A DNA stretch of 64,000 nt from Nocardioides cavernae (GTDB lineage Bacteria; Actinomycetota; Actinomycetes; Propionibacteriales; Nocardioidaceae), in the NCBI RefSeq assembly GCF_016907475.1, contig NZ_JAFBCA010000001.1:4030001-4094000 (forward strand), in the 5' to 3' direction. A program made the position numbers and the translations under genes. Numbering within the stretch: position 1 is the stretch's first letter; each line of letters opens with the position of its first letter. Of the stretch, positions 24,988-29,101 are shown in pieces. The notes beneath the pieces are model-generated. The model saw only the letters and a list, made by a program, of their open reading frames with translations, searched no databases and was not told the DNA's origin.

Positions 24988-25578
24988 ATGCGCTCCGGGT
25001 CACCTGTGGACGACGGCCTGGACCCGTCGCCGTCGTGGCACCGTCGGAGGGTGCCCGCCCGACCCGCCCCCTCGTCGTACGTCGGCGGCACGCGCGCGCA
25101 GCTCGACTGCCCTGACGCCTGGACCGGGGCCGTCGTCGCCGCGCTCTCCGCGGCCGGGGTCGTCCTCGACCCCAGCGCGCCCGTCGGGATCGCGGTGACC
25201 CCCGCACGCCTGGTCTCGGCCACGGTCGACGCGTGGAGCGTCGACTCACTGCCGCACGTGCTGGTGGGCGTGCAGCCCTACGCAATCGACGTCGGCCCGT
25301 GGGTCGCCCCCGGCGTCGGACCGTGCGCGCGGTGCGTGGCCGCCGCGGTGCTCGACGAGGGCGATCGCGCCGCACCGGGAGCGGTCCCGAGGCCGTTGCT
25401 CGCGCTCGCCGCCGGAGCGGTCGCCCGCGACCTCGCCGCGTGGTCGCGGAGCGAGCTGCCGCACACGTGGCTCACGTCGTGGCGCGTCGACCACGAGCCG
25501 GTGCCCGCCGCACGACGCTGGCAGCGCCACCCCTACTGCGGCTGCGCCTGGTTCGACGAGGGGTTCGACGCCGGCTGA
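24988..25578 (+). CDS. Cyclodehydratase-like (TOMM/ThiF-related) protein, Rv3196 type
   Basis: The product is about 196 aa from ATG 24988; GTG 24961 and GTG 25051 are alternatives, but the terminator-like hairpin at 24941-24973 makes 24961 unlikely. The C-terminal half resembles the actinobacterial proteins often labelled bacteriocin biosynthesis cyclodehydratase: HVLVGVQPYAIDVGPWVAPGVGPCARCVAAA and a terminal HPYCGCAWFDEG, giving a CxxC/CxC zinc site. No precursor peptide or cyclisation partner gene lies nearby, and homologues sit next to uvrD2 in many actinobacteria, so a housekeeping role is more likely than RiPP synthesis. Confidence 0.75.
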   Translation: MRSGSPVDDGLDPSPSWHRRRVPARPAPSSYVGGTRAQLDCPDAWTGAVVAALSAAGVVLDPSAPVGIAVTPARLVSATVDAWSVDSLPHVLVGVQPYAIDVGPWVAPGVGPCARCVAAAVLDEGDRAAPGAVPRPLLALAAGAVARDLAAWSRSELPHTWLTSWRVDHEPVPAARRWQRHPYCGCAWFDEGFDAG

Positions 25579-25600
25579 TCGGCCGGCTGATCGGGGTGTG

Positions 25601-25768
25601 TCACCACCACTCGCTGTCGAGCTTGCTCTCCATCGCCCTCAGGTGGGTGCGCGAGCAGGTGTCGCAGTAGGCGCGGCGCCGGCCGTTCTCGACCGAGGTC
25701 GTCCACGTGAGGGTCTCCCCCTCGGGGGCCCGGGTGCCGCAGAAGTCGCACGTCACGAGGTCGCTCAC
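25601..25768 (-). CDS. Hypothetical 55-aa zinc-finger protein
   Basis: The GTG at 25768 opens a 55-residue frame ending TGA 25601. It has two CxxC pairs, TCDFCGTRAPEGE and YCDTCSRTHLRAME, 24 residues apart, and ends KLDSEWW. The start is supported by TAGCCT (25775-25780 on the plus strand) exactly 6 nt upstream, the leaderless module of this genome. The pattern fits a treble-clef or zinc-ribbon protein. No name is known to me. It converges on the cyclodehydratase-like gene. Confidence 0.75.
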   Translation of the reverse strand: MSDLVTCDFCGTRAPEGETLTWTTSVENGRRRAYCDTCSRTHLRAMESKLDSEWW

Positions 25769-25815
25769 GCCTCGAGGCTACCCCGGCGCGGCGGGGTCGA
25801 TGATCCTGGAAATGG

Positions 25816-25860
25816 CAGCGAGCCGGTACGTCGTCACGGTGACGACGTACCGGCTCGCTG
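25816..25860. terminator. 45-bp palindrome with 22-bp perfect arms
   Basis: Arms 25816-25837 and 25839-25860 are exact reverse complements around a single central base, starting with CAGCGAGCC and ending GGCTCGCTG. It lies downstream of the 64-aa gene (25922-26116) on the minus strand and CATTTCC follows on that strand, which fits a terminator. A cruciform or protein-binding role is also possible. Confidence 0.6.
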
Positions 25861-25921
25861 TGTGTGCTCACCCGCGATCAGGGCGAGAGCCGTCCCGAGG
25901 CCAGGTCGGCCTCGGAACACG

Positions 25922-26116
25922 TCAGATCGCGCGAGCGAGGGCGAGACGCGCCTGCTGCGCGGCCTGCTCGGCCTTGCGGCTCATACGACGGGCCAGGGCC
26001 AGCTGGTGGCCGCGCCGCAGTTCGTGCGCCTCTCCCAGGCGCGCGGTCATTTGCGCGCGTGCGAGTTCTTCATGCATGAGATTCATGTCGTTTCGTCCAT
26101 TTCGGTAGGTCTTCAT
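25922..26116 (-). CDS. Small basic helical protein downstream of whiB7
   Basis: The 64-aa product reads MKTYRNGRNDMNLMHEEL, then Arg/Ala-rich helices with LARAQMTARLGEAHELRRGH and ARRMSRKAEQAAQQARLALARAI. The MNLMHEELARA core is like short uncharacterised actinobacterial proteins I have seen. Starts at 26116 (used here), 26086 (MNLM) and 26077 are possible; no strong SD marks any. It lies 47 bp after whiB7 on the same strand and may be induced together with it. Confidence 0.6.
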   Translation of the reverse strand: MKTYRNGRNDMNLMHEELARAQMTARLGEAHELRRGHQLALARRMSRKAEQAAQQARLALARAI

Positions 26117-26163
26117 GAGAGATGTGTTCCTTGCACTTCTTCGGAGGTGGTGGAGCGTGGCGC

Positions 26164-26544
26164 CTACGCGGCGGCCCCGTCCTTCTGGTTCTGGCCGGTC
26201 TGAGCGACGACCTGCTCGGACTTGCGGGGCCGGCCTCGCGGCCGCTTGCGCGGGATCACCACGCCCTGGAGGAAGAGCTCGCCTCCCCAGACGCCCCACG
26301 GCTCACGCCGCTCGAGGGCTCCGTCGAGGCACAGTGCACGCACCGGGCAGTCGATGCAGAGGGCCTTGGCGTGCTCCACGTCCGCGGGGGACTCGGCAAA
26401 CCACAGCTCTGCGTCGTTGACGCGGCAGGGCAGCAGCTCCTCATTCACTCCGGCAGCTGCGTCGTGCAGGGCTCCGAGCGGGGCCTGGGGCTCCACCTCG
26501 GTCTTGTCGGCAGCTCGATTGCGGTCGAGAACGCTGATGGTCAT
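26164..26544 (-). CDS. whiB7: WhiB7 transcriptional regulator
   Basis: The 126-aa product has the Wbl [4Fe-4S] cysteines (PCRV, then CIDCPVRALC), the GVWGGELF turn and a C-terminal AT-hook RGRPRK that defines WhiB7. In other actinobacteria it binds the primary sigma factor and AT-rich DNA upstream of -35 elements and activates intrinsic antibiotic-resistance genes. The start at 26544 follows GGAGGAGGTG. Upstream on the same strand are a terminator (26597-26639), a 63-codon leader ORF and a promoter with an AT-rich box, so expression is probably controlled by attenuation and autoregulation. It lies next to uvrD2, as in mycobacteria. Confidence 0.95.
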   Translation of the reverse strand: MTISVLDRNRAADKTEVEPQAPLGALHDAAAGVNEELLPCRVNDAELWFAESPADVEHAKALCIDCPVRALCLDGALERREPWGVWGGELFLQGVVIPRKRPRGRPRKSEQVVAQTGQNQKDGAAA

Positions 26545-26596
26545 GTTTTCACCTCCTCCTCGTTGACCTGATCGCGGTTTGTGACTCACTTGGGAC

Positions 26597-26639
26597 AAAC
26601 AGAAAGGCCGCGGATCCCGGGTTTCGGGTTCCGCGGCCT
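26597..26639 (-). terminator. Intrinsic terminator (attenuator) in the whiB7 leader
   Basis: A 15-bp stem with one mismatch (26625-26639 with 26605-26619, 5-nt loop) is followed on the minus strand by TTTCTGTTTG. It sits between the leader ORF stop and the whiB7 SD, so it must be bypassed for whiB7 to be transcribed. Two segments inside the leader ORF can pair with both of its arms (see findings). Confidence 0.85.
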
Positions 26640-26665
26640 GGAGGCTGCCGATGTAGGTGTGTGAC

Positions 26666-26857
26666 CTAAGTCGACGGACTCCAGGCTGGAGTACCCGGGA
26701 AGACGCCCTTGACGCGCTCGATGGACACAGCGGTCCCCTGGAGCGCAGCTGCAAGATCGACACCGAGGACGCGCACATCAGTGGCGCAGCGGTGGCCTGC
26801 AGTGGGCATGCCGAAGGACGGCGTCCAAGCCGTCATCGTCATCGTGTAGTTCTCCAT
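26666..26857 (-). CDS. whiB7 leader ORF (63 aa)
   Basis: ATG 26857 follows a near-perfect SD, AAGGAGGTGG, about 6 nt upstream. The frame encodes MENYTMTMTAWTPSFGMPTA and then 43 more residues, ending SPST-TAG at 26668-26666, 27 nt before the terminator hairpin. Leader ORFs with an attenuator upstream of whiB7 are known in actinobacteria; this one is longer than a minimal leader peptide. Its translation probably sets the fold of the RNA rather than making a needed protein, though a functional product cannot be excluded. Confidence 0.75.
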   Translation of the reverse strand: MENYTMTMTAWTPSFGMPTAGHRCATDVRVLGVDLAAALQGTAVSIERVKGVFPGTPAWSPST

Positions 26858-26930
26858 GGGGGCCACCTCCTTCGGGGCATCAGGCGCGGATCGTCGTCAG
26901 CGATCCCATGCGCGGGTTGTTGTGAAGGGA

Positions 26931-26972
26931 ACGTTAGACCCCTCACATCGTCAGGGGCAAACCATTTAATGG
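26931..26972 (-). promoter_or_regulatory. whiB7 promoter with AT-rich upstream box
   Basis: On the minus strand TTGCCC (26960-26955) and TAACGT (26936-26931) are separated by 18 nt. Directly upstream of the -35 is the AT-rich CCATTAAATGG-like stretch (26972-26962), the place where WhiB7 inserts its AT-hook, so self-activation is likely. Confidence 0.7.
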
Positions 26973-27025
26973 GTATTACCGAGAATTCTTTCCGGATCGC
27001 CCTCCGACGCCCGTCCGCAGGCCAC

Positions 27026-29101
27026 TCAGCTGCCGGCTCCGGCGACCAGCGCGAGCACCTCGTCGCCGTACTTGGCGATCTTGCCCGGGCCGACGCCGCT
27101 GATCTTGCGCAGGCCCGCCTCGTCGGTGGGGACGTGCTCGGCGATCAGCTGCAGGGTCGCGTCGGTGAACACCACGAACGCCGGCACGCTGTCCTCCGCG
27201 GACCGTGCCAGGCGCCACTCGCGGAGCCGCTCGAAGAGCGCCTCGTCGTAGGACGCGGGGCAGTCGGCGCAGCGGCCGATCTTCTTCTCCACCGACGTCG
27301 ACAGTGCCTTGCCGCACTCGCGGCAGTGCATCGCGGCGCGGTTGCGCTTGGTGCGCTCCCGCCGCTGCGCGGACACGCCGGGCACGCCGTCGAGCAGGGG
27401 CGCGAGGAACGGCGAGCTGCCGCGCGTCGAGCGGCCGCCCGGCTCCCGGGCCGTCGCCCACGACACGGTGAGCTCGTCGCGGGCGCGGGTCATCGCGACG
27501 TAGAGGAGTCGACGTTCCTCCTCGACCTCCGCGGGCGTCTGCGCCTGCGAGATCGGCATCATCTTCTCGTGCATGCCGGCCACGAAGACGGCGTCCCACT
27601 CCAGGCCCTTGGCCGAGTGGATCGTCGCGAGGGTGACGGCGTCCGCCACCGGCGCGTGCTGCTCGCTGGCGCGACGGTCGAGGTCGTCGACGAAGTCGCC
27701 CACGCTCGCCTCGGGACGCTCGCGTCCGAAGTCGGCCGACAGGTCGACGAGCGCCTGCAGGGACTCCCACCGGTTGCGGACCTCTCCCCTGCCCTCGGGC
27801 GGCTCGGTGGAGTGGCCCATCTGCGAGAGCACGGCCACGACCGCCTCGGACACCGGGCCGGACGCCTCGCCCGAGCGGGCCGCACCCCGGACGAGGGTGA
27901 TCGCCTGCCGCACCTCGGGACGGTCGAAGAACCGCGCAGCGCCGCGTACGACGTAGGGGATCCCGCGAGCCGCCAGGGCCTCCTCGAAGCGCTCGGACTG
28001 GGCGTTGATGCGCAGCAGCACGGCCATCCGGCTGGCCGGGGTGCCGGAGGCTCGCAGGGCGGTCACCCGGTCGGCGACGGCCTCGGCCTCGGCGACCTCG
28101 TCGGTGGCCTCGCGCCAGGTGATGCGGGCGCCGGCGGGACGCTGGGCGACGAGGTCGACACCCTTGCTGGGCGTGCCGGCGAGCAGCCGGTTGGCCGCGG
28201 CGACCACCTCGGGGGTCGAGCGGTAGTTGCGGACCAGGTCGACGCTCGTGGCGGAGGGGAAGCGCTGGGTGAACTCACGCAGGTAGCGGGCGTCGGCGCC
28301 GGCGAAGGAGTAGATCGTCTGGGCGGGGTCGCCCACGACGCACAGCTCGTCGCGCCCGCCGAGCCACAGGTCGAGCAGGGCGTGCTGGAGGGGCGAGACG
28401 TCCTGGAACTCGTCGACGACGAACCACTTGTACTGGCGGCGGACCTGCGCGGCCACGGCCTCGTTGTCGGCGAGGAGCCCGGCGCCGAACAGCAGCACGT
28501 CCTCCATGTCCATCCGGCCCTGGCCGCGCTTGACCTCCTCGTAGGCGTCGAAGGCGCGGGCCACGACCTCGGGGTCCAGGTTGGACACCGCTCGGCCGCG
28601 GGTGCGGGCGATCGCGGCGTAGCGGTCGGGGCCGACGTTGGAGACCTTGGCCCACTCGATCTCGCTGGCGAGGTCGCGCAGCGTGGCCTGGTCGACGCCG
28701 AGCCGCTGTCGTCGCGCGGCGAGCGCGAGCATCGCCAGCTTGGACTGGACGAGCTCGGGCAGCTCGCGCTGGTGGACCCGCGGCCAGAAGAACCGCAGCT
28801 GGCGCAGCGCGGCGGAGTGGAAGGTCCGCGCCTGCACCCCCGGCGCCCCGAGGGCACGCAGCCGCTCACGCATCTCACCCGCCGCGCGGGTCGTGAACGA
28901 CAGCGCCAGCACCTCGGTGGGCGCGTAGACCCCCTGGGCGACGCCGTGCGCGATGCGGTGGGTGACCGCGCGGGTCTTGCCGGTGCCGGCGCCGGCCAGG
29001 ACCCGCACGGGCCCGCGCAGCGCCTCGGCGACCTGTCGCTGCTCGGGGTCGAGCGCTTCGAGCAACGGAACAACTCCTGCGACGTCGTGGTTGGGGCTCA
29101 T
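27026..29101 (-). CDS. uvrD2: ATP-dependent DNA helicase UvrD2 (SF1, with HRDC domain)
   Basis: The 691-aa product has the Walker A motif VLAGAGTGKTRAVTHRI, ALSFTTRAAGEMRERL, the Walker B VVDEFQDVSPLQ, GDPAQTIYSFAGAD, RNYRSTPEVV and TIHSAKGLEWDAVFV, a full SF1A helicase set. Two CxxC pairs (CRECG and CADCP) form the UvrD2 tetracysteine motif, and the C-terminus is an HRDC domain (LQLIAEHVPTDEAGLRKISGVGPGKIAKYG). It unwinds 3'-tailed duplexes in DNA repair and is essential in mycobacteria. It lies between whiB7 and the mycoredoxin gene, as in M. tuberculosis. Confidence 0.96.
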   Translation of the reverse strand: MSPNHDVAGVVPLLEALDPEQRQVAEALRGPVRVLAGAGTGKTRAVTHRIAHGVAQGVYAPTEVLALSFTTRAAGEMRERLRALGAPGVQARTFHSAALRQLRFFWPRVHQRELPELVQSKLAMLALAARRQRLGVDQATLRDLASEIEWAKVSNVGPDRYAAIARTRGRAVSNLDPEVVARAFDAYEEVKRGQGRMDMEDVLLFGAGLLADNEAVAAQVRRQYKWFVVDEFQDVSPLQHALLDLWLGGRDELCVVGDPAQTIYSFAGADARYLREFTQRFPSATSVDLVRNYRSTPEVVAAANRLLAGTPSKGVDLVAQRPAGARITWREATDEVAEAEAVADRVTALRASGTPASRMAVLLRINAQSERFEEALAARGIPYVVRGAARFFDRPEVRQAITLVRGAARSGEASGPVSEAVVAVLSQMGHSTEPPEGRGEVRNRWESLQALVDLSADFGRERPEASVGDFVDDLDRRASEQHAPVADAVTLATIHSAKGLEWDAVFVAGMHEKMMPISQAQTPAEVEEERRLLYVAMTRARDELTVSWATAREPGGRSTRGSSPFLAPLLDGVPGVSAQRRERTKRNRAAMHCRECGKALSTSVEKKIGRCADCPASYDEALFERLREWRLARSAEDSVPAFVVFTDATLQLIAEHVPTDEAGLRKISGVGPGKIAKYGDEVLALVAGAGS

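Follow-up and report, generated by a model that had tools for sequence, protein, structure and literature searches.

Organization of the whiB7 locus

The window, i.e. the whole stretch of 64,000 nucleotides of Nocardioides cavernae DNA that was analysed, carries on its minus strand a whiB7 gene (26544-26164) with a UvrD-type helicase gene upstream. The product matched the Pfam Whib domain (E 8.4e-15) and, among solved structures, WhiB7 ranked top with 107.8 bits against 37.3 bits for the best non-WhiB7 entry, the GVWGG motif and the RGRPRK hook both aligning to WhiB7; the gene downstream of the leader is thus WhiB7 by its Whib domain, its GVWGG motif and its AT-hook. No NCBIfam family was retrieved for this product at E 0.01, and no Rfam family was found for the region 25000-28500, scanned up to E 1. 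A small basic ORF of 64 amino acids (25922-26116), without Pfam or NCBIfam match at E 0.01, lies directly 3' of whiB7.

The predicted promoter of the leader (26980-26931) is made up of an AT-rich stretch (26980-26961), a -35 box TTGCCC (26960-26955) and, after a spacer of 18 nt, a -10 box TAACGT (26936-26931). Of the 25 leader upstream regions inspected, 20 have the motif TTTGC behind an A+T-rich stretch. Mycobacterial whiB7 is autoregulated, as stated in the available text of PMC13393426, and by analogy the leader promoter described here is probably under WhiB7 control as well.

Downstream of this promoter, the Shine-Dalgarno (SD) sequence AAGGAGG (26872-26866) precedes a leader ORF (uORF) of 63 codons that runs from ATG at 26857 to the stop codon TAG at 26668-26666. 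The end of the uORF contributes two strands to a predicted antiterminator. The first, S1 (CGGGT, 26697-26693), is assigned by covariation and folding to ACCCG (26629-26625), the inner part of the terminator 5' arm; the second, the 5' strand of the pairing termed AT1 (GCCTGGAG, 26686-26679), is assigned by alignment, covariation and folding to CTCCAGGC (26643-26636), which overlaps the base of the same arm. Hairpin H (26675-26647), which includes the leader stop codon, is enclosed between the antiterminator strands. The intrinsic terminator with its U-rich tail (26639-26596) comprises AGGCCGCGGAACCCGAAACCCGGGATCCGCGGCCT (26639-26605) followed by TTCTGTTTG. In addition, ACTCCAGCCTGGAGT (26678-26692) could fold locally into a small hairpin, which would mask the 5' strand of AT1, and CTCC...GGAG versions of this type of hairpin are present in several of the nearest leaders.

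In the original prediction the promoter, the SD, the 63-codon ORF, the terminator and whiB7 had been placed on the minus strand at coordinates that are all correct to the base. The switch was built there on two 8-nt complements, TCCCGGGT (26700-26693) with ACCCGGGA (26622-26615) and GCCTGGAG with CTCCAGGC, which are indeed perfect and nested, their leader segments lying within codons 53-60. Nonetheless, 17.6% of dinucleotide shuffles of the leader ORF (n=2000) held one or more separate 8-nt complements of the terminator region, so that a single one means little by itself; two or more were found in 1.05%. The real evidence for the leader pairings is therefore conservation rather than chance statistics. 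The stop-codon hairpin and the amino-acid make-up of the leader, both dealt with below, were absent from that prediction.

Conservation of the leader

Our main sample consisted of 123 Nocardioidaceae leaders, 97 from the 98 sampled genomes of the genus (G070 was dropped for want of a clear whiB7). The remaining 26 represent other genera of the family; there, 30 loci had been obtained out of 51 family genomes with a match and three duplicates (L098, L099 and L105) were removed from the family loci. All 123 leaders contain CTCCAGGCCGCGG and, after it, a CCGCGGC arm when up to three substitutions and a single indel are tolerated; all have a near match to CCTGGAG further upstream, and in the alignment TGGAG and CTCCAGGCCGCGG are near-invariant. 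An anchored search recovered the terminator hairpin in 123 of 123 leaders. A generic terminator finder showed it with a T-rich tail in 121, having picked another hairpin in L043 and L071, as it did in the duplicate L099. In exact form, the terminator pattern was matched by 122 of 147 genomes of the genus, and a longer pattern occurs, with TGGAG included, in 22 of 295 genomes of the class, 14 of them in the genus; the match of G579 to the latter is without hairpin and probably due to chance.

The pattern CCTGGAG-N25-55-CTCCAGGC was found in the window's own genome at the present locus alone, on both strands, but its reversed control occurs there 3 and 2 times, which implies that this pattern alone is not rare. 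Scanning named genomes yielded at least 119 loci; among the matches listed, 111 have whiB7 downstream, in two (L136 and L189) the sequence ends just past the likely whiB7 start, and six are probable chance matches. The 113 listed loci include members of Nocardioides, Marmoricola, Kribbella, Nonomuraea, Herbidospora, Planotetraspora, Streptosporangium, Actinospica, Actinoallomurus and Crossiella. The layout is common to leaders outside the family and the letters differ.

The same surveys provided some observations on the distribution of the gene. Eight listed genomes of another genus of the family (code g19) lack a whiB7 match at E 1e-24 and none has one; in G199, a genus relative with a genome 71% complete, the leader terminator element is present twice; and the genus relatives G001, G011, G015, G039, G052 and G072 carry extra WhiB7-like paralogues with about 47-60% identity.

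Alternative pairings of the leader

The pairing of GCCTGGAG with CTCCAGGC stands as originally proposed, with near matches in 123 of 123 leaders and 96.7% of the cells paired in the Nocardioidaceae alignment; its own covariation is weak because AT1 hardly varies. RNAalifold on 65 divergent cross-family leaders recovered just 6 AT1 pairs, S1 and the hairpin remaining unaligned across families.

The second pairing was originally drawn between TCCCGGGT and the loop and 3' arm of the terminator (ACCCGGGA), so that, alongside AT1, both terminator arms would be broken. This model is backed by the perfect 8-bp match in the window, by the minimum energy of the TCCCGGGT/ACCCGGGA state at two late polymerase positions that were sampled, 26604 and 26601, and by raw duplex energies, which favour the 3' side in 93 of the 123 Nocardioidaceae leaders and the 5' side in 23. 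Covariation, on the other hand, speaks for the 5' inner arm. In a set of 109 distinct leaders, none of 5000 partner permutations equalled the true 5' partner, whereas 1287 of 5000 did as well as the true 3' partner. After swapping partners among the 20 nearest relatives of each of the 123 leaders, a leader's own 5' inner arm outperformed the swapped ones in 89 cases and fell short of them in 29 (p 2e-8), against 56 better and 67 worse for its own 3' arm (p 0.86), for which this test has less power owing to the low variability of that arm. Cells in which both partners had changed numbered 22 in the 5' model (11.0 in shuffles; 88.1% paired) and 8 in the 3'-arm model, close to the 6.8 of its shuffles. 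Sliding the partners by one column gave 28 doubly changed cells, more than the 22 in structure, with pairing reduced to 55.9%; and the tree-based test of independent pairs returned 2 supported pairs for S1 and the 5' arm, which is not significant.

Leaders from outside the Nocardioidaceae also favour the 5' side. In 34 of 38 of them (40 loci, selected by record title, minus L181 and L235, a few being unclassified MAGs) the 5' side is the stronger partner; their S1, e.g. GGTCCGC, matches GCGGATCC on the 5' side of the terminator, and in leaders such as L136 and L141 the 3' side fits far less well than the 5' side. Furthermore, CCCGGG is a palindrome that fits either arm, so that a match to both is expected from either pairing. 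Altogether, the comparative data suggest that the second pairing is better supported with the 5' inner arm (CGGGT/ACCCG) than with the 3' arm. The check by covariation within the Nocardioidaceae, proposed along with the two 8-bp pairings, thus turned out positive for CGGGT/ACCCG and failed to bear out TCCCGGGT/ACCCGGGA, and the simultaneous break of both arms is not well supported. We regard that model as improbable; still, ACCCGGGA is a possible later partner, and both terminator arms may be used in turn by the leader segment. An antiterminator shared by the end of the uORF and the terminator arm was thus found computationally.

Folding and proposed mechanism

The stop codon is in hairpin H or enclosed by it in 123 of 123 leaders (5' arm in 98, loop in 25), and the sequence of the hairpin changes among leaders with strong folding kept: measured against single-base shuffles, the mean z was -2.86 and z fell below -1 in 118 of 123. 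The position of the stop is likewise constrained, 18-30 nt upstream of CTCC and 17-20 nt past the start of CCTGGAG (122 leaders), in uORFs of 48-97 codons (119 leaders). These parts, their conservation, the CGGGT/ACCCG covariation and the predicted folding are direct results of the present analysis.

With the leader free, the window at equilibrium favours the terminator (-58.0) over the antiterminator (-49.9, or -54.2 with TCCCGGGT/ACCCGGGA); since the terminator is more stable even then, the switch must be kinetic. In the occlusion model, computed on 122 leaders with L109 left out, all 122 pair with the 5' arm as long as the 3' arm is still missing, at a mean of 15.5 expected pairs. Placing a ribosome mask on the stop lowered these antiterminator pairs to 6.7 and raised the terminator pairs from 7.2 to 8.7. 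Counting against the mechanism, fewer than 3 antiterminator pairs were left under the mask in just 18 of 122 leaders, because S1 lies outside the masked footprint. Folding also separates the roles of the two strands, AT1 alone opening the terminator base beside the U-tract while the inner hairpin remains, and S1 tying up the inner arm.

How these parts would work during transcription and translation of the leader, ribosome stalling and read-through into whiB7 we infer from the sequences as follows. In a healthy cell the ribosome would reach the leader stop, open the stop-codon hairpin, as expected of a ribosome terminating inside it, and cover GCCTGGAG; CTCCAGGCCGCGGAACCCG would then be free, the terminator would form and transcription would stop. 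Under stress, when a drug acting on ribosomes or a missing charged tRNA slows or stalls the ribosome farther upstream, GCCTGGAG would be left to pair with CTCCAGGC and CGGGT with the inner 5' arm ACCCG. The resulting long antiterminator hairpin would capture the 5' arm ahead of 3' arm synthesis, so that the polymerase would continue into whiB7. In the species of the window the CCCGGG segment may later move to the 3' arm.

We put the probability that the whiB7 leader is a conserved ribosome-controlled transcription attenuator, in the version that combines S1/5'-arm pairing with AT1, at roughly 0.87. The conserved end of the leader (A-W-S/R-P-P-x-stop) might alternatively reflect a constraint on the peptide, e.g. 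proline-rich arrest, with RNA pairing as a by-product; PP occurs within the last 7 residues in 93 of 119 leaders and Trp within the last 9 in 118. We give this little credence, as leaders of the families f3 and f60 mostly end differently (e.g. WSDPA or WRHPQVT), the leader end still pairs with the 5' side of the terminator in other families, and in L100 and L103 an additional base of the leader strand has its counterpart in the partner (CCTTGGAG/CTCCAAGG); a constraint on the A-W-S-P-P peptide is in our view secondary. Rho acts at leaders in actinobacteria, but that Rho, or translation of whiB7 itself, controls the gene with the terminator being minor is very improbable in view of a hairpin kept in 123 of 123 leaders and a T-rich tail in 121.

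Amino-acid composition of the leader peptide

The 63 residues of the window leader include all 20 amino acids, and the set is complete already within the first 52. Peptides could be derived with a conservative start choice from 119 of the 123 Nocardioidaceae leaders, four having no start that satisfied the SD rule. The peptide is fast-changing, with a ratio of synonymous to nonsynonymous codon differences of 115:176 in close leader pairs of equal length; the 16 nearest leaders have 60-64 codons. In spite of this, 65 of the 119 leaders are complete and the mean is 19.23 distinct amino acids. Reshuffling residues among leaders (1000 runs) gave a mean of 17.68 (sd 0.09), with never more than 21 complete sets; for within-column shuffles (500 runs), which keep shared ancestral positions, the mean was 18.12 and the highest number of complete sets 22. 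The other frames of the leader DNA encode 13.0 and 14.3 distinct residues and the antisense 14.7, none complete, and equal-length segments from 366 ORFs of named relatives reach 16.65, 2.0% of them complete. In the subset of leaders less than 50% alike by string matching, 21 of 52 are complete.

The rare residues occur about once each: Cys, His and Tyr are present exactly once in 71, 86 and 93 of the 119 leaders, at positions that scatter over 40, 46 and 32 alignment columns. The scatter suggests that these residues are lost at one site and gained at another, with the reservation that the middle of the peptide aligns poorly. Accordingly, no run of codons for the amino acid of one pathway, of the trp or ilv type, was found in the 119 leaders. 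Within the part preceding the last 11 codons, in which a stalled ribosome would leave GCCTGGAG free, the set is complete in 47 of 119 leaders against 1.2% of controls; in the part preceding the last 13 codons it is complete in 26 (reshuffle mean 2.9). Counting against a pangram, Glu, Tyr and Asn are missing in 24, 20 and 16 of the 119 leaders, and Trp is confined to the last 11 codons in 35.

The survey of peptides outside the family covered 106 loci (L250-L265, L293-L309 and L310-L382), of which 95 yielded a peptide and 11 lacked a terminator or uORF under the rule applied; of 176 class-level genomes with a match, 73 were drawn by place, L293-L309 of their loci being used. Excluding L261, L262, L264 and L265 (no family assigned) and L294 (same genus), 90 out-of-family leaders were counted, and L127-L130 and L266-L292 were likewise kept out of the counts. 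Complete sets were found in 44 of the 90: 13 of 13 in f3, which we take to be Streptomyces-like, 9 of 14 in f62, 6 of 11 in f60, 2 of 6 in f61, 3 of 13 in f4, presumably mycobacteria-like, and 11 of 33 in the remaining families. Column shuffles reached the observed mean in 0 of 500 runs for f62, 1 for f60, 7 for the Streptomyces-like family and 8 for f61. The mean exceeds the expectation from the composition of other families in 18 of 25 families, Nocardioidaceae included (Wilcoxon p 0.005), the other seven lying at or below it, some with uORF calls with weak SD. The 13 mycobacteria-like leaders (L256, L258, L259 and L320-L329) contain 26.8% alanine and have no excess in their amino-acid set, 403 of 500 column shuffles reaching the observed mean.

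Comparison with known attenuators

Ribosome-mediated attenuation is already in print for whiB7/wblC, in the available passages of PMC11550727, PMC9618640, PMC10727445 and PMC13393426 (citing Lee, Lee and Roe 2022), and the first three of them also agree with the original prediction in describing a ribosome-controlled attenuator in which the end of the leader ORF supplies the 5' strand of the antiterminator. Judging from these first three and from excerpts of Dinan 2014 (PMC4128351), the window leader shares with the mycobacterial and Streptomyces attenuators an SD-led uORF, an intrinsic terminator between uORF and whiB7, whiB7 itself downstream, an antiterminator taken from the uORF end, and read-through promoted by a stalled ribosome. 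It differs from the known cases by GCCTGGAG/CTCCAGGC and CGGGT/ACCCG with the stop-codon hairpin between, and mycobacteria-like leaders fold via other pairings, without the amino-acid excess. The attenuator is thus of a known kind for whiB7/wblC, here in a clade-specific form to which we add the corrected pairing and the stop-codon hairpin. This corrects and extends across many genera the RNA logic of whiB7, a regulator of intrinsic drug resistance in actinomycetes. Lee, Lee and Roe, in the 2022 article mentioned above (Mol Microbiol 117:179), are said to have found that antiterminators differ among actinomycete sub-clades.

In the trp attenuator the position of the ribosome picks terminator or antiterminator, and the leader codons are those for the operon's amino acids. 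Similarly, in ilvB1 of M. tuberculosis (PMC13236596, as far as its available text goes), ribosome position in the leader ORF selects between both structures, but the ilvB1-type codons specify the operon's own amino acids, whereas the whiB7 leader has all 20, the rare ones about once. Drug-stalled uORF ribosomes also alter the downstream gene in are5sc and tiaA (PMC12421871) and in toiL of E. coli (PMC12121999); vmlR counts among such antibiotic-sensing systems too. However, the uORFs of are5sc and tiaA are described as very short (MLV and MVGDDDISG), with stalling at the start codon (PMC12421871), while the uORFs of whiB7 are long and encode an almost complete set of amino acids.

The pangram leader is the new and surprising part of our study. 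A literature search, with the full text of Lee, Lee and Roe 2022 outside its scope, found no published statement of it. We lean towards the view that the whiB7/wblC leader of many actinomycetes is a selected pangram, which turns over fast and yet tends to retain one or more copies of every one of the 20 amino acids, for the most part upstream of the antiterminator, so that one leader could report the shortage of any charged tRNA together with drug-stalled ribosomes; mycobacteria-like lineages would have departed toward an alanine-rich leader. The near-complete set suggests a sensor for the shortage of any amino acid or aminoacyl-tRNA besides drugs. In the available sections of the respective papers, whiB7 is also induced by amino-acid starvation, stalling in its uORF being untested at that time (PMC12121999), and serine tRNA cleavage is linked to whiB7 induction in a discussion (PMC10287673). 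The varied peptide could instead serve context-specific drug stalling, in which the residue differs by drug, and not amino-acid sensing. This is rather unlikely in our opinion, although it would suit the response of whiB7 to several classes of ribosome-targeting drugs (PMC12121999, available passages), for it leaves the roughly single copies of Cys, His and Tyr unexplained. If true, the selected pangram would explain how one leader answers stresses as unrelated as amino-acid starvation, tRNA damage and many drugs, would act as a general-purpose sensor of translation stress, as opposed to classical leaders watching one or few amino acids, and would make direct single-codon predictions.

Codon usage of the 119 leaders was also peculiar. 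T-ending codons are enriched relative to genes (TTT 13-fold, TCT and ATT 8.6-fold, AGT 8-fold and GCT 7-fold) and AAA, CTA, TTG, GAA and CAA are avoided, which possibly denotes slow wobble codons or the avoidance of AG-rich sequence; the number of distinct codons per leader is 34.0, against 27.2 in controls.
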